DNA from: a virus
Virus record (IMG/VR): IMGVR_UViG_3300017917_001342
Location: 124,001-188,000 of that record
Length of the DNA: 64,000 bases
Direction: 5' to 3' (one strand)
Position numbers and translations under genes: made by a program. Shown piece after piece: positions 5,519-60,436 of this stretch. The notes under the pieces were generated by a model, which had not been told where the DNA came from, made no database searches, and saw only the letters and a list, made by a program, of their open reading frames with translations. How positions within the stretch are numbered: position 1 is the first letter of the stretch; each line of letters starts with the position of its first letter.

Positions 5519-5593
5519 GGGTTTGTAGCTCAACGGTAGAGCAGGTGTCTCTAAAACATCGAGGTGTGGGTTCGAATCCCATCTTACCCGCCA
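5519..5593 (+). tRNA. amber suppressor tRNA(CUA)
   Basis: The cloverleaf is complete: D-arm GCTC/GAGC, anticodon arm GGTGT-CTCTAAA-ACATC with U33 and anticodon CUA, T-arm GTGGG-TTCGAAT-CCCAT, G73, encoded CCA. The acceptor GGGTTTG/CTTACCC has two U-U mismatches. It would decode UAG. UAG still ends about six genes here (894, 3264, 6695, 22211, 42131, 53316), so it is rare as a stop, not abolished. Confidence 0.85.
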
Positions 5594-12721: not shown

Positions 12722-12799
12722 GCTTCCGTAGCTCAATGGAATTAGAGTAGCGAGCTTCTACCTCGTTGGTTGTGGGTTCGAGTCCTACCGGGAGCACCA
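12722..12799 (+). tRNA. tRNA-Arg(UCU), copy 1
   Basis: Acceptor GCTTCCG/CGGGAGC, A73, encoded CCA. Anticodon arm GCGAG-CTTCTAC-CTCGT. Confidence 0.92.
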
Positions 12800-19690: not shown

Positions 19691-19735
19691 TTACACATAT
19701 ATCAAGTATAATTACTTGTAAAATATAGTGTGATA

Positions 19736-20971
19736 ATGGATCAATTTTTTCAAAAAACTGTAGGTAGCAATTTTGCATGCGGCTATAAATGGGCATGGAG
19801 TACCATACGGTTACAGACTAGAACAACAAATAGTTGTCATAGAACCGATCAAGACATTATCACACCAGAAACATTTGATTCATTTCATAACACACCAATT
19901 AAATTGCAAACTCGCAAAGCCATGTTAAATGGACAATGGCCGGGTCACGGTTGCGAGTACTGTAAACACATAGAAGATTCTGGTGGCATCAGTGATCGCA
20001 TGTATGCTAATGAACATATACACAACGCTTACATACCTCATGAACTAATAACTAATCCAAAATCGTTAAAAACTACACCCACTATGGTTGAGGTGTATTT
20101 TAGTAATCTTTGCAATATGAGTTGCATTTACTGTAATGAATCATTTAGCACAGTTTGGGAACAAGAAAAACTCAAACACAACGAGCCGATTGCATCTAAT
20201 TTACTGTCGATTAGTTCTGTCGATTACAAAAAAATGACAGACGCATTTTTTACTTGGTTAGATAAAAATATCTATTCGATATTTGAGCTAAACATTTTGG
20301 GCGGCGAACCATTCTTTCAACCAGAACTTGATAGAATGTTAGCATTTATAGAAACGCACCCAAATCCAGATCTAACACTTAAAATATTTTCTAACTTAAA
20401 AGTTCCTACACAAAAGTTTTCTACTATTCTACGTAAATTAGATAGTTTTATCGAATGTAATATAGTCAAACAAGTTGAAATAATAACCAGTATAGACTGT
20501 TGGGGGCCGGAACAAGAATACATACGTACAGGAATTTCTCTTCGTCAATGGGAAGAGAATTTTTCGTACATGGTAAAAAATCATCAAAATATTAACATAC
20601 GAACCCACGGTACCATCACCTGTCTTACCATTAAGACTATATATGGCTTAATTGAAAAAATTAACTTTTACAATAGTTTCAGATCTAACTCTGAGATAAT
20701 TTATTCGTCCGATTTGCTAGTAGAACCAGAGTTCTTACAGTCGGGTATATTCCCATCGGGTTTTTTCGACGATGATTTTGCTGCTATTTTACAAATAGTA
20801 CAAGAAGATTATACAAAAGAGAAAATAACCAATCATTGGTTATCTGTAAACAATCATCAGTATAAACCAGAACTTATTTCAAAACTAAAAGCATTTTTAA
20901 CAACACTTGATATCAGACGCAACACCAACTGGAAATCTACATTTAAATGGCTAGATGAGTTTCAAGTGTAA
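19736..20971 (+). CDS. radical SAM protein, twitch type (paralogue 1)
   Basis: 411 residues. CNMSCIYC (126-133) is the CX3CX2C motif that holds the radical [4Fe-4S] cluster, and ILGGEPFF the SAM-binding GGE motif. An N-terminal Cys-rich part (HRTDQD, GHGCEYCKHIEDSGGISDR) could hold a second cluster. The short barrel fits twitch-domain radical SAM proteins, reported in marine phages with unknown substrates. The start 19736 ATG is used, not GTG 19730. First of three tandem paralogues with 2- and 1-nt gaps. Confidence 0.82.
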   Translation: MDQFFQKTVGSNFACGYKWAWSTIRLQTRTTNSCHRTDQDIITPETFDSFHNTPIKLQTRKAMLNGQWPGHGCEYCKHIEDSGGISDRMYANEHIHNAYIPHELITNPKSLKTTPTMVEVYFSNLCNMSCIYCNESFSTVWEQEKLKHNEPIASNLLSISSVDYKKMTDAFFTWLDKNIYSIFELNILGGEPFFQPELDRMLAFIETHPNPDLTLKIFSNLKVPTQKFSTILRKLDSFIECNIVKQVEIITSIDCWGPEQEYIRTGISLRQWEENFSYMVKNHQNINIRTHGTITCLTIKTIYGLIEKINFYNSFRSNSEIIYSSDLLVEPEFLQSGIFPSGFFDDDFAAILQIVQEDYTKEKITNHWLSVNNHQYKPELISKLKAFLTTLDIRRNTNWKSTFKWLDEFQV

Positions 20972-24463: not shown

Positions 24464-24540
24464 GGTTCCGTAGCTCAGTTGGATAGAGCAGGGAACTTCT
24501 AATTCCAAGGTCGAGGGTTCGAATCCTTCCGGGACCGCCA
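24464..24540 (+). tRNA. tRNA-Arg(UCU), copy 2, within a leader-trailer helix
   Basis: Acceptor GGTTCCG/CGGGACC, G73, encoded CCA; anticodon loop CTTCTAA gives UCU. GGAAAACATATG upstream and CATATGTTTTCC, which includes the CA of CCA, pair perfectly in the precursor, so the CCA end would be buried until processing. Confidence 0.9.
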
Positions 24541-27129: not shown

Positions 27130-28251
27130 ATGGAAAACACTGATAAAGATTTTTATTGTGCAGCACCGTTTGTGAATAGATCGTACGATCCAAACGGTAA
27201 AGTTAAACCTTGTTGCGAATGGCACAACTTAGATACAACTGTCGACGATGAACAACAGTTGATTTCTCTACGATCTCAATTTTTACAAAACAAACCAAAT
27301 CCCTGTTGTAAAGTCTGTCATAAAACAGAAGCTGCTGGGGTACAATCTACTAGAAATGATTTTAACAACAGGTACGGTAGACCAACTGTACCTGTGCTGC
27401 GTCATTTGGATCTAAGTCTAGGCAATCTATGTAATTTCAAATGTAGAATGTGCAGCAGTTTTTTTAGCACAAAATGGGCCAGTGACGAACAAGCATTGGG
27501 ATTGATTCCACACAAGTTGTACAGACGTACCTGGGATGAATTGAAACATTTAGACATATCAAATGTAGATATGATCAAGTTCAAAGGTGGCGAGCCTTTT
27601 CTAGAACAAGAAACAATGATCAATACCCTAACTGCAATCTTATCTCAAAAAGGCTCGTTAGAAAATATTACAGTTGTTGTAAACACAAATGGATCTATAG
27701 AAATAGAACCAAGATTGATAGAGTTGTTGTCTCTTTGCAAAACTGTTAACTTAACAGTTAGTATAGATGGATACGGTAAAGTAAACGAATATCAACGCAC
27801 AGGCGCAGTATGGAATGTAATAGAAAAAAATCTATTAGATTTTCAAAAAAATCTCAACAATAACTTTGACTTATCTATATGGTCTGTGTGGACTATACTC
27901 AACATTACTAACTTAAAAACACTGTTAGGCTGGGTTACAACCAACTTGCCTAGATACAAAATCTATGGTACTACGCTGCATTTTCCAGAAGAGTTTGCTA
28001 TACGCAATATACCAGACCAACTAAAAACGCAATTTTTTAATGACATTAGCAATTGGTGTGAACTCGATCACAACGACGGTGTGCTAGAAAACAAATTACA
28101 GATTTTAAATGAGTTACAACAACAGCCTATAAAAACGATCAACGAAGTTAAATCTTACATAGATAGCCTTGACAAAGTTAGAAATGAGTCGTTTTCTTTA
28201 ATAGATCCTGTGATGTATGCGGCATTTTTTGAATCAACTGTTGACATATGA
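27130..28251 (+). CDS. radical SAM protein, twitch type (separate subfamily)
   Basis: 373 residues. CNFKCRMC (101-108) and FKGGEPFL are the cluster and SAM motifs; an N-terminal CAAPF...KVKPCCEW and CCKVCHKTEAAG resemble the two-cluster (SPASM-like) region. It is distinct from the three paralogues at 19.7-23.5 kb in motif wording and length. No strong ribosome site. Substrate unknown. Confidence 0.82.
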   Translation: MENTDKDFYCAAPFVNRSYDPNGKVKPCCEWHNLDTTVDDEQQLISLRSQFLQNKPNPCCKVCHKTEAAGVQSTRNDFNNRYGRPTVPVLRHLDLSLGNLCNFKCRMCSSFFSTKWASDEQALGLIPHKLYRRTWDELKHLDISNVDMIKFKGGEPFLEQETMINTLTAILSQKGSLENITVVVNTNGSIEIEPRLIELLSLCKTVNLTVSIDGYGKVNEYQRTGAVWNVIEKNLLDFQKNLNNNFDLSIWSVWTILNITNLKTLLGWVTTNLPRYKIYGTTLHFPEEFAIRNIPDQLKTQFFNDISNWCELDHNDGVLENKLQILNELQQQPIKTINEVKSYIDSLDKVRNESFSLIDPVMYAAFFESTVDI

Positions 28252-28700: not shown

Positions 28701-28729
28701 TTGACAACGTTCAAGTAACACACTATATT
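28701..28729 (+). promoter_or_regulatory. promoter before a hairpin RNA
   Basis: TTGACA 28701-28706, 17-nt spacer, TATATT 28724-28729. Confidence 0.7.
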
Positions 28730-28798: not shown

Positions 28799-28827
28799 TT
28801 GACACGCTGTACGTAAGGTGTTAAAGT
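28799..28827 (+). promoter_or_regulatory. promoter of the second RNA operon
   Basis: TTGACA 28799-28804, 17-nt spacer, TAAAGT 28822-28827. Confidence 0.7.
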
Positions 28828-28833
28828 AACTGA

Positions 28834-28868
28834 GTAAACAACAAAACGGTTTACATGCTCTTTAAAAA
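28834..28868 (+). promoter_or_regulatory. boxB-like hairpin and boxA, rRNA-type leader
   Basis: GTAAAC (28834-28839)/GTTTAC (28849-28854), then GCTCTTTAAAAA (28857-28868). Same order and spacing as at 15912-15943. Confidence 0.75.
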
Positions 28869-28914
28869 TTTACATGTGGTCCTAGCGCAAGCGATAATGG
28901 ACAAGAAGCGAAAG

Positions 28915-29036
28915 TTTCTGTTTACACATATTGTAACTGCTTTAGGTAATAGCATTTCGGTAATGCGCACTTGCTTAATCGAGTGAGATACGGTTCGAGT
29001 CCGCACCAAGCAAATTACAATAGCTGTAAACAGAAA
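28915..29036 (+). ncRNA. tRNA-like RNA with two-part outer helix, no CCA
   Basis: TTTCTGTTTAC (28915-28925)/GTAAACAGAAA (29026-29036), then ATTGTAA/TTACAAT and TGCTT/AAGCA. Inside are GCATT/AATGC, CACTTG-CTTAAT-CGAGTG and a T-arm around TTCGAGT. The centre could present UAA but the loop is 6 or 8 nt. Confidence 0.6.
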
Positions 29037-29079
29037 TTGCACGATATTAACGTTGTGAAACGTGGATGTTGTGTTTACG

Positions 29080-29921
29080 CATTGGGGGTTTAGCCTCAAC
29101 AGGATAAGTGCAGTGATGCACCCAAAGCTAGAAAGCCTACATACTAGCGCCAGCAGTGGTCCATCTAAACAAGCCTGAACTAGACTTGACTCGGGTTAAA
29201 CCGAAAGCAAGTCCCGTCCGTAGAAAGGCGGTAGGCAGTAAGTTAGGAATAGTGTCCGAAAGGATAGTTGCAGAGCCAGTCGGTGAGCGATAAGAGGGTT
29301 GGCGCCCAAACACTGTTCAGCCAAACTAACGAATGCTGAAAGTTAACAGGTAGGTACAGAGTCTGAGCCCGCAAGCAAAGGCATGGTACCATTTCGAGAG
29401 TGGAAGGGTTAGGCCCCGGATACTTGAAGAAACACTGATTAGTCCGCAAGACGAAAGGTATGAGGTGTGCTGTATTGGGTATGTCAAAAGCATATTCAGC
29501 AGCCGAGGTAGCACATCTCGGATAGGTTGCAAAATCAGCTAATGGTAAGCTAATTCCCTTCTAAGGAATCGATTGCAGGTTCAACTCCTGTTTTTGAAAA
29601 ATGCAAAGTCTACCTCGGTATGTAGTGTAAGGTGTCAAATACTTGAGGCGCAAGCCAATCAAGTTCAACAAAGCTCGCAAGGCAGCGTTGATTTGTGCTA
29701 GAAGTTTCGTAGCCCGCAAGGCTTAATGGTCCGCAAGATCAACGGAAAACAAGGTGCAGAATAGCTACATACGACGAGTCTACTGCCTGACTCTAAAAAC
29801 GGCGACACTGTTAATGGACTAGGTTACCGCAAGGGACTTAGTGGATGTCGGAAGAAAGCGGCTCGCAAGGCTGGCAATAATGTCCGAAGCGTTAACATCG
29901 AACGTGTAATCTCAGCGTTTG
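29080..29921 (+). ncRNA. large ornate RNA 2, GOLLD-like
   Basis: About 840 nt without an ORF, full of GNRA-capped hairpins (many GCAA loops such as CCCGCAAGC, CTCGCAAGG, CCGCAAGA). A tRNA-like domain sits inside a 9-bp helix CCGAGGTAG (29503-29511)/CTACCTCGG (29610-29618). Size, phage context, neighbouring tRNAs and an internal tRNA match the GOLLD RNA class described from bacterial and phage genomes. I identify it by these features, not by alignment. It starts after an rRNA-type leader and ends at a terminator. Confidence 0.6.
29528..29599 (+). tRNA. tRNA-Arg(UCU)-like domain inside the ornate RNA
   Basis: Acceptor TGCAAAA/TTTTGAA (6 of 7), D-arm AGCT/AGCT, anticodon arm ATTCC-CTTCTAA-GGAAT giving UCU, a 5-nt variable loop and T-arm GCAGG-TTCAACT-CCTGT. 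No CCA is encoded. Confidence 0.75.
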
Positions 29922-29926
29922 TTTTA

Positions 29927-29948
29927 AAAAGGTCCTTCGGGACCTTTT
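29927..29948 (+). terminator. terminator of the ornate RNA operon
   Basis: AAAAGGTCC-TTCG-GGACCTTTT followed by CT; UUCG tetraloop. Confidence 0.8.
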
Positions 29949-29999
29949 CTCATGACTGATGCATTGATAAATATTCTGCATTTTAAATGGTATATTACA

Positions 30000-30665
30000 A
30001 TGAGATACAACGAGATCATAGCAGAAGCAGAAGTACCACAAGTCGACATCGAACATCTGGGAAACTGGACGGTATCTCTGAGTAAAGAACCTATTATACT
30101 CAAGTCAGTAACTGGCGACAAACCACAATTTGTAGCCAGAATCACTAACAAACGAAAAACAGGCGTAGTATTCACAGGCGCGGGACCTACACAAGGTGCT
30201 GCTCGCGATGCAGCAATGGCAAATGCTGCAAAAATGGATAGACCCGAAACTGTGAAAAAATATTCACATATCGAATGCCTAATGAACGTAGATTTCATTA
30301 ATACGTACATAGATGACCTATCTAATACGTATTTTAAATTTGTTCGAGACGATAACGACCAAACTGAATTAGTACTTGCTAGCAAGCATTTTGCAAAAGT
30401 ATATGCTAAAGAATTGATTCAACAGGGTTTTATGAAAGCATATCCCCATGCAAATCGTACTGCATGTAGATTCCTAATTAACCAACAAATCATGGAAAAA
30501 TACGGTCTTGTACCAAATATGCGTTACATTCTCAGAGAAGGAGACACTGACGACTATGGTAACCAAATGTTCGAATTGGTACCAACATTTAGGTCACAAG
30601 GACCGTGGGACAGTTTATTGCTAAACACCCCCGGTATGACTATAGCTGCAATTCCAGAGAAATAA
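30000..30665 (+). CDS. 221-residue hypothetical phage protein
   Basis: Start at 30000 (MRYNEIIAEAEV, a leader pattern of marine phage proteins). The middle has GVVFTGAGPTQGAARDAAMAN and a helical region; the C-terminal part is mixed. Soluble, no motif I can name. An upstream in-frame ATG at 29952 lies in the terminator trailer. Confidence 0.7.
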   Translation: MRYNEIIAEAEVPQVDIEHLGNWTVSLSKEPIILKSVTGDKPQFVARITNKRKTGVVFTGAGPTQGAARDAAMANAAKMDRPETVKKYSHIECLMNVDFINTYIDDLSNTYFKFVRDDNDQTELVLASKHFAKVYAKELIQQGFMKAYPHANRTACRFLINQQIMEKYGLVPNMRYILREGDTDDYGNQMFELVPTFRSQGPWDSLLLNTPGMTIAAIPEK

Positions 30666-56856: not shown

Positions 56857-57954
56857 ATGGACAAAAAATATGATATGGCTGTATTCATCGGCCGCCTTGA
56901 GCCCTTTACTGAAGCACACCGTCGAAATGTGCAAACTGCGCTCAACAATGCAAAAAAAGTCACTGTGATTATTGGCTCTGCAAATGCGCCACGCAGTCAT
57001 CGTTTGCCTTTTACTTTTGAAGAACGTGCAGCAATGGTCAAAGCTGCGTTTCCGGCAGATGCAGATCGTATCTACTGCGAACCTGTTGAAGATACTATCT
57101 ACAACGACGAACAGTGGGTTAAAAACGTACAAGCTGCTGTGAAGCATGCGTTTACTGCTGCATTTGGTGCTTGGCATCCACTGGCAAAAGTTGCACTGGT
57201 TGGGCACGGCAAAGACAGCACTAGCTTTTACCTAAAACTGTTTCCACAGTGGGAAAGCATCAACGTACCTAATCACAAAAATATCAATGCAACTGATGTT
57301 CGTAAAAAGTTTTTCAGCGTTGATTCGATGTATGAACCAATTATGAATGTGCTGTCGCTAGACGAACTTCCGCAGTCGACTATTGATTTTCTACACAAAT
57401 TTTCTATGTCGCCTGACTACAGCAACATTGTAGATGAATACGAATTTGTTAAAAAGTATCGCAGTGCATGGGATGCTGCACCGTTTCCTCCGACATTTGT
57501 CACTGTTGACAGTGTGATTGTGCAGAGTGGTCACATCTTGCTTGTAGAACGTGGTGCTCGTCCTGGTAAAGGACTTTGGGCATTGCCGGGTGGGTTCCTT
57601 CGTGCATACGACGAACTTGACAGCAAATCTGGTAAGATGAAGCCAGCAGACAAGACTATGCTCGACGGTGCTATCCGCGAACTGCGTGAAGAAACTAAGA
57701 TCAAAGTGCCAGAACCAGTTCTGCGTGGCAATGTAAAAGCATCACAGGTGTTTGCTGATCCGAACCGCAGCAGCCGCGGGCGTACTATTACACATGCGTT
57801 TCTTATTCATCTTCCGCCAAACGAAGAACTGCCTAAAGTCAAAGGCAGCGACGATGCAAAGAAAGCCAAATGGGTACCGCTTGCAGACGTTAAACGCAAT
57901 ATGATGTTTGAAGATCACTATGACATCATTTTGTCTATGACTGCACTGATCTAA
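56857..57954 (+). CDS. nadM: bifunctional NMN adenylyltransferase and Nudix hydrolase
   Basis: 365 residues. GRLEPFTEAH (12-21) is the nucleotidylyltransferase motif and residues 1-170 the NMNAT domain, which joins NMN and ATP to NAD+. The C-terminal half is a Nudix domain: GGFLRAYDEL ... GAIRELREETKI, with an insertion before the RELREE part; it would hydrolyse ADP-ribose. NMNAT-Nudix fusions are known in bacteria and phages. With NAMPT (59057) it restores NAD+. Confidence 0.9.
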   Translation: MDKKYDMAVFIGRLEPFTEAHRRNVQTALNNAKKVTVIIGSANAPRSHRLPFTFEERAAMVKAAFPADADRIYCEPVEDTIYNDEQWVKNVQAAVKHAFTAAFGAWHPLAKVALVGHGKDSTSFYLKLFPQWESINVPNHKNINATDVRKKFFSVDSMYEPIMNVLSLDELPQSTIDFLHKFSMSPDYSNIVDEYEFVKKYRSAWDAAPFPPTFVTVDSVIVQSGHILLVERGARPGKGLWALPGGFLRAYDELDSKSGKMKPADKTMLDGAIRELREETKIKVPEPVLRGNVKASQVFADPNRSSRGRTITHAFLIHLPPNEELPKVKGSDDAKKAKWVPLADVKRNMMFEDHYDIILSMTALI

Positions 57955-59056: not shown

Positions 59057-60436
59057 ATGACTAACCTAATCCTAAACACAGACAGCTACAAAGCCAGCCA
59101 TTGGGGACAATACCCTAAAGGCACTGAAAACGTTTTCAGCTACATCGAAAGCCGCGGTGGCATCTTTGATCGCACAGTGGTATTTGGACCGCAGATGTTT
59201 GTCAAAAACACGCTGATGAAAGGTGTCACAGTAGACAACGTTAAAGAAGCCAAAGAAATGTGGACTGCACATGGCGAGCCTTTTAACGAAGACGGCTGGA
59301 TGGACATTGCAACACGACTCGGTGGTAAACTACCTCTGCTAATCAAAGCTGTACCCGAAGGCACTGTGCTACCAACTCACAACGCTATGGTTACAGTTGA
59401 AGCTACTGATCCCAAGCACTACTGGTTGACCAGCTACGTTGAAACACCACTGCTTCGTGCAGTTTGGTACCCAACTACAGTTGCTACTCTCAGCTGGCAT
59501 ATCAAGCAGTTGATCAAAGCTGCAATTGAAAAGACTAGTGATGTTCCTGAACAGATTGCATTCAAACTGCATGACTTTGGTGCTCGCGGTGTCAGCAGCG
59601 AAGAAACTGCTATGATCGGTGGCGCTGCACACCTTGTCAACTTCATGGGTACTGACACTATGAGCGGCATTGTTGCTGCTAAGCGTTTCTATCATGAACC
59701 CATGGCAGGTTTCAGTATTCCTGCTGCTGAACACAGCACTATGACTAGCTGGGAACGCGATCACGAAGTAGATGCGTATGCAAACATGATTGATCTCTAT
59801 GCTAAGCCTGGTGCACTGTTTGCAGTTGTTAGCGACAGCTATGACTTTTGGAATGCTGTTAGCAACATCTGGGGCGAGCAACTGCGAGAACGTGTGATCA
59901 ACAGTGGTGCAACACTGGTAGTGCGTCCTGATAGCGGTGATCCTACTACTGTGCCTGTTAAAGCTATTCAGTTGCTTGCTGAAAAGTTTGGTTACACTGT
60001 AAACAGCAAAGGTTACAAAGTTCTGCCTAGCTGTGTGCGAGTGATCCAAGGTGACGGTATCACACTGGACAGCATCAAAGTTATCATCAAGAATCTCACT
60101 GATGCTGGCTTTGCTATTGACAACCTTGCATTTGGTATGGGCGGCGGACTTGGTCAGATGGTCAACCGTGACACACTGAAGTTTGCACAGAAAGCCAGTG
60201 CTGCTAAAGTCAACGGTGTATGGCGCGATGTCTACAAAGACCCCGTAACTGACCACGGTAAGCGTAGCAAGCGCGGTCGTCTTGCACTGGTACGTGACCG
60301 TGGACACTGGGAAACTGTACGCGAAGAAGATCGCATGGGTGTTGATTACCTGGAACCAATCTTCTGCAACGGCGAACTGCTGCGTGACCAAACCTTTGCA
60401 GATATTCGCGCTCGTAGCGAAATTGCACAAGACTAA
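59057..60436 (+). CDS. nadV: nicotinamide phosphoribosyltransferase (NAMPT)
   Basis: 459 residues. DSYKASHWGQYPKGTENVFS start, LHDFGARGVSSEETAM, PAAEHSTMTSWERDHE (catalytic His) and LVVRPDSGDP are the NAMPT motifs. It makes NMN from nicotinamide and PRPP, which NMNAT (56857) converts to NAD+. This pair matches the two-enzyme NAD+ reconstitution route (NARP2) reported to counter NAD-depleting defence. Strong AAGGGAGACTTGAAAA site. Confidence 0.93.
   Translation: MTNLILNTDSYKASHWGQYPKGTENVFSYIESRGGIFDRTVVFGPQMFVKNTLMKGVTVDNVKEAKEMWTAHGEPFNEDGWMDIATRLGGKLPLLIKAVPEGTVLPTHNAMVTVEATDPKHYWLTSYVETPLLRAVWYPTTVATLSWHIKQLIKAAIEKTSDVPEQIAFKLHDFGARGVSSEETAMIGGAAHLVNFMGTDTMSGIVAAKRFYHEPMAGFSIPAAEHSTMTSWERDHEVDAYANMIDLYAKPGALFAVVSDSYDFWNAVSNIWGEQLRERVINSGATLVVRPDSGDPTTVPVKAIQLLAEKFGYTVNSKGYKVLPSCVRVIQGDGITLDSIKVIIKNLTDAGFAIDNLAFGMGGGLGQMVNRDTLKFAQKASAAKVNGVWRDVYKDPVTDHGKRSKRGRLALVRDRGHWETVREEDRMGVDYLEPIFCNGELLRDQTFADIRARSEIAQD

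Follow-up and report, generated by a model that had tools for sequence, protein, structure and literature searches.

A tRNA-like domain in the linker of a phage GOLLD RNA that begins with an rRNA-operon-like leader

The window, by which we mean the whole 64,000-nucleotide stretch of DNA of a very large phage analysed here (bases 124001-188000 of a 518,643-base virus record), encodes on its plus strand a large RNA that is virtually certain to be a GOLLD RNA. At the level of sequence, this RNA combines both GOLLD domains, a tRNA-shaped domain that sits in the linker and is closed off by a covarying helix, and a boxA leader resembling the start of an rRNA operon. The best overall explanation, to which we give a probability of roughly 0.4, is a GOLLD cage that carries an unchargeable, exchangeable tRNA mimic, is transcribed from an rrn-like antiterminated start, and perhaps acts as bait. 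A tRNA in the linker is in itself an arrangement already known, since the available text of PMC12286853 states that phage-encoded tRNAs are sometimes present there. What the present analysis adds is a linker that looks like a socket, mimics that appear to be exchangeable and mostly unchargeable, and, in many of these RNAs, a start that resembles that of an rRNA operon.

An earlier note on this DNA had described positions 29080-29921 as a GOLLD-like large RNA and had looked to the Rfam model for a strong match over the 3' half. The Rfam GOLLD covariance model (RF02032, gathering score 150 bits) does match positions 29462-29918 (+) with 234.1 bits (E=3.8e-65, 64 kb searched), spanning model positions 1-416 of 416, and the match was found again in a narrow search. 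The 5' half also belongs to GOLLD: an HMM trained on 5' domains from 59 further tRNA-bearing GOLLDs, excluding the window and its nearest relative, matches 29087-29458 (E=5.9e-43). We place the 3' domain at 29462-29918 (+) and the 5' domain at 29081-29461 (+), the latter being 88% identical to that of L132, a locus on a 157,923-base contig. This locus is the closest relative among the matches listed, and its identity of 88% holds from about 29051 as far as the 3' end. Because the variable 5' domain is also present, the RNA extends over about 29081-29948; the extent given earlier was thus nearly exact, while leaving out a leader of about 240 nt upstream. A score above the gathering threshold, a 5' region of about 400 nt, a phage tRNA setting and a variable linker, all of them features of GOLLD membership, are found here.

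The GOLLD model matched none of 14 control genomes (0/14), and no second GOLLD was found elsewhere in the virus record. Folded as a single sequence, the body has an ordinary energy (z -1.27); the case for the GOLLD body is made by the family model and by comparative conservation, not by folding energy. The GCAA loops remarked on previously can be seen in the sequence as loops of the CGCAAG type. At the 3' end, a terminator-like hairpin (29927-29948, +) formed by a perfect 9-bp inverted repeat (29927-29935/29940-29948) around a 4-nt loop would be expected to end the transcript. The hairpin part of the strong terminator proposed in the earlier note is therefore present, but few T follow it and the terminator scan does not include it in its list. 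The downstream protein (29952-30665) found no relatives in viral_contigs when used as query, tblastn of the 411-aa neighbour protein found none either, and a strict pattern for the 3' end gave no match.

The surroundings are rich in tRNAs, 46 of which, all on the plus strand and between genes, are spread over 315-40763 of the window; this agrees with the earlier remark that GOLLDs occur near tRNAs and sometimes contain one. One of the tRNAs (5519-5593, anticodon CTA, labelled Pyl by ARAGORN) is a possible amber suppressor. A skipping-rope RNA (RF02924; 39057-39173, +; 46.9 bits, cut-off 36.7) lies about 9 kb downstream of the GOLLD. Two radical-SAM proteins are encoded at 19730-20971 (phrog_14086 match) and 27130-28251 (phrog_1802 match), the second gene ending about 830 nt upstream of the GOLLD body. 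A cytidyltransferase/NUDIX-type protein (56857-57954, phrog_395) and a nicotinamide phosphoribosyltransferase (59057-60436, phrog_448) are likely a NAD salvage pair.

The linker that follows the first hairpin of the 3' domain is filled in the window RNA by a tRNA-like domain (29527-29600, +), which starts 70 nt into the 3' domain at a site that is unpaired and AU-rich in the GOLLD model. Its cloverleaf is recognised above cut-off by both ARAGORN (anticodon TCT) and cmscan (53.1 bits), in accordance with the tRNA-Arg(UCU)-like domain of the earlier reading. The 9-bp helix said to hold this domain is exact: CCGAGGTAG at 29503-29511 (+) pairs with CTACCTCGG at 29610-29618 (+), and the helix covaries in 51 related RNAs. 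According to the available text of PMC12286853, GOLLD env-38 (833 nt) forms a homo-14-mer RNA cage by cryo-EM, and its linker (nt 497-538) is disordered and lies inside the hollow of the cage. Counting from the 3' end, this linker and the site of the window tRNA domain are the same region. The acceptor stem of the window domain is incomplete, with one non-standard pair in the alignment to the Rfam tRNA model (cmscan), and an encoded CCA is absent, unlike in most free tRNAs of these phages; the missing CCA could be added by a host CCA enzyme. Given the lack of CCA, the non-standard acceptor pair and the membership in a pool with damaged acceptor ends, the window domain is probably not a working tRNA-Arg.

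This pool was assembled with two patterns taken from conserved GOLLD stretches and a third that joins the T loop to the end of the linker; the fetched loci are those among the matches listed, and the proportions reported here are no measure of prevalence. Among the 138 loci fetched by pattern (L002-L139, among the matches listed), 100 were submitted to the covariance model and 98 were positive; the remaining 38 and most loci of the T-loop pattern were assigned by nhmmer or by pattern alone. The nhmmer model, trained on 89 of 107 segments with the window included, gave 143 unique GOLLD 3' regions among the matches listed, 66 with an ARAGORN tRNA inside and 77 without. In 64 of these 66 (among the matches listed), the embedded tRNA lies 62-75 nt into the 3' domain, the others being L272 (47) and L300 (51). 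When the T-loop condition is left aside, a tRNA is found inside 26 of 107 unique segments among the matches listed. For comparison, the same loci supplied 63 unique embedded domains and 1060 unique free tRNAs, which were scored alike using the best of seven acceptor registers; the acceptor and CCA scores of free tRNAs are limited to those with the T-loop motif (600/1060). The T-loop pattern demands GGTTCRANTCC, so that in the loci fetched with it an invariant T stem at pairs 4-5 and a surviving T loop follow from the search itself. Helix closure was counted in 51 of 66 RNAs, leaving out 15 without anchor motifs. The GOLLD tree has 59 rows, leaving out matches shorter than 400 or lacking a three-letter anticodon, and the comparison of cores with bodies also drops L104 and L272, which have short flanks. 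We would stress that kinship among the loci inflates all comparative counts and that the p-values are not independent. The T-loop/linker pattern was also found in bacterial genomes (118 stretches among the matches listed), 18 of which were scanned by the covariance model. The sole GOLLD in these 18 stretches, and the sole one of them in the nhmmer matches (among the matches listed), lies on a Thalassospira xianhensis contig (L371; 4923-5395, -); it has an embedded tRNA-like domain with anticodon CGT and is presumably part of a prophage.

As a class, the embedded domains combine a preserved tRNA shape with a decayed acceptor end. Among the matches listed, all seven acceptor pairs are present in 8/63 embedded domains compared with 510/600 free tRNAs, CCA in 2/63 compared with 508/600, and, for Asn types, G73 in 1/23 compared with 25/25. 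Within the embedded acceptor stems listed, the outer three pairs are 63-65% paired and pairs 4-7 are 92-98% paired. The anticodon-stem pairs hold in 55-59 of 59 embedded domains and T-stem pairs 1-3 in 59-61 of 61, with compensatory changes in both stems (among the matches listed). The closing helix behaves similarly among the matches listed, with pairs 3-9 holding in 50-51 of 51 RNAs, pairs 4-7 showing compensatory changes, pair 1 holding in 48/51 and pair 2 in 40/51. Because these stems hold while acceptor pairs, CCA and G73 are lost, it seems that selection preserves the tRNA shape but not the end that would carry the amino acid.

One related locus has an unusual insert. The linker of L125 holds, 63 nt into the GOLLD 3' domain, a circularly permuted tRNA-Ser(UGA) in the order T arm, acceptor 3' strand, CCA, 8-nt loop, acceptor 5' strand, D arm and anticodon arm. 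It has a complete 7-bp acceptor stem and CCA, is joined to the cage via the variable arm and not via the acceptor, and is recognised by ARAGORN when rearranged to the ordinary order. This permuted tRNA looks made for processing or charging. A layout search of the 143 GOLLD 3' regions listed gave no permuted tRNAs other than L125 and two overlapping L057 matches, close to where the 3' domain begins, that were taken for chance.

The best-placed alternative, although still unlikely, is that the domain represents a genuine tRNA gene, excised by host RNases and completed by the CCA enzyme, with the GOLLD RNA acting as a precursor or as a store for late release. This would agree with the recognition by two tRNA finders, with the intact acceptor stem and CCA of the L125 tRNA in the same place, and with the annotation of the equivalent domain as a plain tRNA-Arg in GenBank, both for Phaeobacter phage MD18 and for phage DSS3_MAL1. 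Moreover, at least six of the seven acceptor pairs are kept in 40/63 embedded domains (among the matches listed), so some of them may still be processed. Such a role is difficult to reconcile with the loss of CCA and of the Asn-type G73, and with the presence of two free tRNA-Arg(UCU) genes in the window (12722-12799 and 24464-24540). Several embedded anticodons (atg 2, att 2, cag 1, tta 1) are absent from the 1060 free tRNAs among the matches listed, and the embedded pseudo-tRNA of a mycobacterial GOLLD gave no separate signal in the available text of PMC6582537. Taking both sides together, we think it quite likely that the embedded domain is not an ordinary working tRNA.

The anticodons of the embedded domains are biased and change often. 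Asn and Lys anticodons occur in 38/63 embedded domains compared with 89/1060 free tRNAs among the matches listed (Fisher p=1.2e-22, a value that is too small because the loci are related), and in 15 of the 26 embedded domains found without the T-loop requirement (among the matches listed). On the 59-row GOLLD tree of the matches listed, 30 anticodon changes are counted compared with a shuffled mean of 33.5, suggesting that anticodon turnover is almost what would be expected at random. Whole cores appear to move. For example, L259 and L264 have a core identical to that of L270 in bodies that are 70% and 72% alike to L270, and bodies that are 89% alike can carry cores that are 61-64% alike (e.g., L279 and L202, cores 61%). 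The rank correlation with the body is 0.43 for the tRNA core vs 0.69-0.82 for six other segments of 55-80 nt (among the matches listed), which suggests that turnover of the linker domain is nearly uncoupled from that of the GOLLD body. Near-identical cores may also differ by a single anticodon base, as in L122 (Asn) and L264 and L259 (Lys), or L035 (Pro) and L134 (Ser). A recent copying of the embedded domain from a free tRNA was considered and rejected, as none of the 877 free tRNAs listed is close (median best identity 0.78). Our literature search returned no report of linker tRNA-domain exchange in GOLLDs.

Slightly less probable than a working tRNA is a neutral passenger: insertions would be tolerated in the linker, where phages rich in tRNAs often recombine, and the anticodon bias would go back to a founder effect. 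In the available text of PMC12286853 it is the linker of GOLLD that varies and is disordered, the 77 of 143 unique 3' regions listed that lack an ARAGORN tRNA fit this explanation, and the permuted tRNA of L125 is an example of an odd insert that is tolerated. However, arms that stay paired through compensatory changes while the acceptor end decays would not be expected of a passenger, the anticodon bias persists despite rapid turnover of the cassette, and the free tRNAs listed offer no close source for the embedded cores.

The second component of the preferred reading, an exchangeable mimic inside an antiterminated transcript, concerns the leader. The rRNA-like leader of the earlier note is present in the form of a boxA with promoter-like sites before it, but lies outside the coordinates given there. 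Two promoter-like sites, P1 (TTGACA-17-TATATT; 28701-28729, +; 11/12 matches) and P2 (TTGACA-17-TAAAGT with TG before; 28799-28827, +; 29 nt before boxA), are followed by a boxB-like hairpin (GTAAAC/GTTTAC; 28834-28854, +) whose loop is not GNRA. Directly after this hairpin lies the boxA GCTCTTTAAAA (28857-28867, +), an exact match to GYTCTTTAANA, which is the gamma-proteobacterial boxA consensus in the available text of PMC5725501. In rrn operons, boxB and then boxA come just after promoter P2 (PMC10250234, available text). Farther downstream, a leader stem-loop (28915-29036, +) has 22-nt arms (28915-28936 with 29015-29036) that are 91% paired, and the leader fold over 28838-29085 has a z of -3.31. 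The interior of this stem (28938-29013) has a faint likeness to a tRNA; it was considered as a second real tRNA and found unsupported, since ARAGORN reports a tRNA only at its 80% threshold, 17 of 200 shuffles reach it too, and cmscan finds nothing at E<=10.

Taken singly, the promoter and box elements are not unusual: the scanned stretch has 4 promoter-like sites compared with 3.6 expected in shuffles (no excess), 21.5% of shuffles reach the score of the boxB-like hairpin, and GYTCTTTAANA occurs 9 times in the phage genome compared with 10 for the reversed control. Since the motif is no commoner than its control, the case for boxA rests on position and conservation. In the stretches 400-800 nt before the 3' domain (45.2 kb, 113 loci, among the matches listed), 26 GYTCTTTAANA sites were found compared with an expectation of 0.59 based on the remainder of these loci (27 in 2.06 Mb), and 0 on the opposite strand. 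Among the boxA-like sites listed, 20/28 have a promoter -10 ending 24-35 nt upstream, and 14/28 have a GNRA hairpin ending 0-4 nt before boxA (shuffles: mean 0.10, maximum 1 in 300 rounds). Of the tRNA-bearing GOLLDs with 1000 nt upstream among the matches listed, 21/56 have the boxA consensus and 35/56 do not; in 13 of these 35, a promoter-like site lies near the start of the body instead. The leader stretch of L132 has, by eye, a similar two-promoter layout and gave no blastn alignment with the window leader. Many such GOLLDs, including that of the window, thus appear to begin with an rrn-style leader of promoter, often a hairpin, and boxA, and we regard boxA-type antitermination of the window RNA as reasonably probable. 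No report of an rrn-style boxA leader on a GOLLD was returned by our literature search.

In the proposed mechanism, host Nus factors acting at boxA would keep RNA polymerase from stopping on the long untranslated transcript, and may also help the RNA to fold. If the published structure applies, GOLLD copies would assemble into a hollow 14-mer cage, with the linker, and hence the tRNA domain, lying within the cavity. The steps that follow are the least certain. The tRNA domain would have no decoding role, and would be an unchargeable tRNA mimic whose cassette is swapped between phages. The cage might then collect the mimic or present it as bait, the target being a host factor that reads the anticodon arm of tRNAs, for instance a defence anticodon nuclease.

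In related phages the domain is swapped and mostly looks incapable of being charged, so its role may be that of bait or cargo and not of a working tRNA. A bait for an anticodon-arm enzyme would be in keeping with preserved arms, loss of the acceptor end, rapid exchange, and an Asn/Lys bias that overlaps the targets of the defence nuclease AriB, which are Lys(UUU), Thr(UGU) and Asn(GUU) and are countered by tRNAs of phage T5 (PMC12409363, available text). It fits poorly with the intact permuted tRNA of L125 and with the Arg(UCU) anticodon of the window, which does not appear on the AriB target list in the available text of that source. The AriB site U36AAU39 is likewise nearly absent, occurring in 2/47 embedded domains with U36 compared with 94/365 free tRNAs among the matches listed. 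This disfavours bait that AriB-like enzymes cut, and a nuclease-resistant competitor would be needed. A closed cage would also hide the bait unless it opens. We therefore hold this use of the domain to be tentative and, on balance, unlikely.

More doubtful than the passenger is a docking role, in which the tRNA domain attaches the RNA to ribosomes and the cage collects or parks them late in infection. Binding of ribosomes to GOLLD in pull-downs is cited by Kretsch et al. (PMC12286853, available text), and an intact anticodon arm with a variable anticodon, together with the rrn-like leader, would suit such a role. Yet most domains lack an acceptor end that could extend to the peptidyl centre, many GOLLDs among the matches listed have no tRNA, and ribosomes within the cage are given as a hypothesis in the available text of PMC12286853. 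Least probable of all is that the domain is purely a folding or assembly module that holds the linker open or whose anticodon loop kisses elsewhere in the RNA: its near-constant position and the covarying closing helix would fit, but the env-38 cage forms around a disordered 42-nt linker that is too short for a tRNA (PMC12286853, available text), and kissing was rejected because anticodon-loop 6-mers have a complement in their own RNA no more often (0.289) than in RNAs with other loops (0.285).

The preferred reading, a GOLLD cage with an exchangeable and mostly unchargeable mimic, may have wider use. The structure of GOLLD cages has been solved; if the linker is a socket for exchangeable mimics, swapping or deleting the cassette becomes a direct handle on their function. 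The boxA leader suggests that some phages may route GOLLD RNA through the bacterial rRNA machinery. In annotation, a tRNA called inside a GOLLD, as happens in MD18 and DSS3_MAL1, should be kept out of counts of ordinary tRNA genes until tested. A broader proposal, slightly less likely than bait itself, is that a group of phage GOLLDs are swappable-cargo cages, in which a helix-closed socket would take exchanged, Asn/Lys-biased, mostly unchargeable mimics as host-matched bait, on a transcript antiterminated in rRNA style.

Among known systems, the window RNA shares with GOLLD RF02032 a full-length model match above the cut-off, the 5' and 3' domains, the variable linker and the neighbourhood of phage tRNAs. 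It differs in having a tRNA-like domain in the linker, as some GOLLDs do (PMC12286853, available text), and in its boxA leader. The GOLLD of Mycobacterium (Maub type strain) likewise has a tRNA-like domain inside and lies in a tRNA cluster, and its authors judge the domain to be a pseudo-tRNA; it is located on a bacterial chromosome, and the diversity and exchange of anticodons are not treated in the available text of PMC6582537.

Phaeobacter phage MD18 (169.6 bits) and Sinorhizobium phage Phosso (186.6 bits) both have a GOLLD match with a tRNA match inside. In MD18 the embedded anticodon is UCU (ARAGORN), as in the window, and in MD18 and DSS3_MAL1 it is a tRNA-Arg annotation that lies beneath the GOLLD match. 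The GOLLD is unannotated in the MD18 and Phosso stretches examined, and the embedded domain of Phosso was found by cmscan and missed by ARAGORN. The MD18, DSS3_MAL1 and Phosso loci came up at 60-80% identity when a related GOLLD served as query, whereas blastn of the whole window locus against named phage records gave no match. In two Roseobacter-group phages, an alphaproteobacterial-type tmRNA lies just 3' of the GOLLD (L428, MD18, 2296-2711; L430, DSS3P8, 2227-2613) and has no annotated feature in the stretches examined.

The leaders of GOLLDs share with the rrn antitermination leader (boxB-boxA-boxC after P2) the order of promoter, hairpin and boxA and their close spacing. The GOLLD RNA, however, is not ribosomal, and the likeness is one of sequence. 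Finally, the embedded Asn(GUU) and Lys(UUU) anticodons overlap the AriB targets that phage tRNAs countering PARIS/AriB address (PMC12409363, available text). Such defence-countering phage tRNAs, whether directed against PARIS/AriB or against retrons, are free and working, whereas the GOLLD domain is locked into its RNA and mostly unchargeable.
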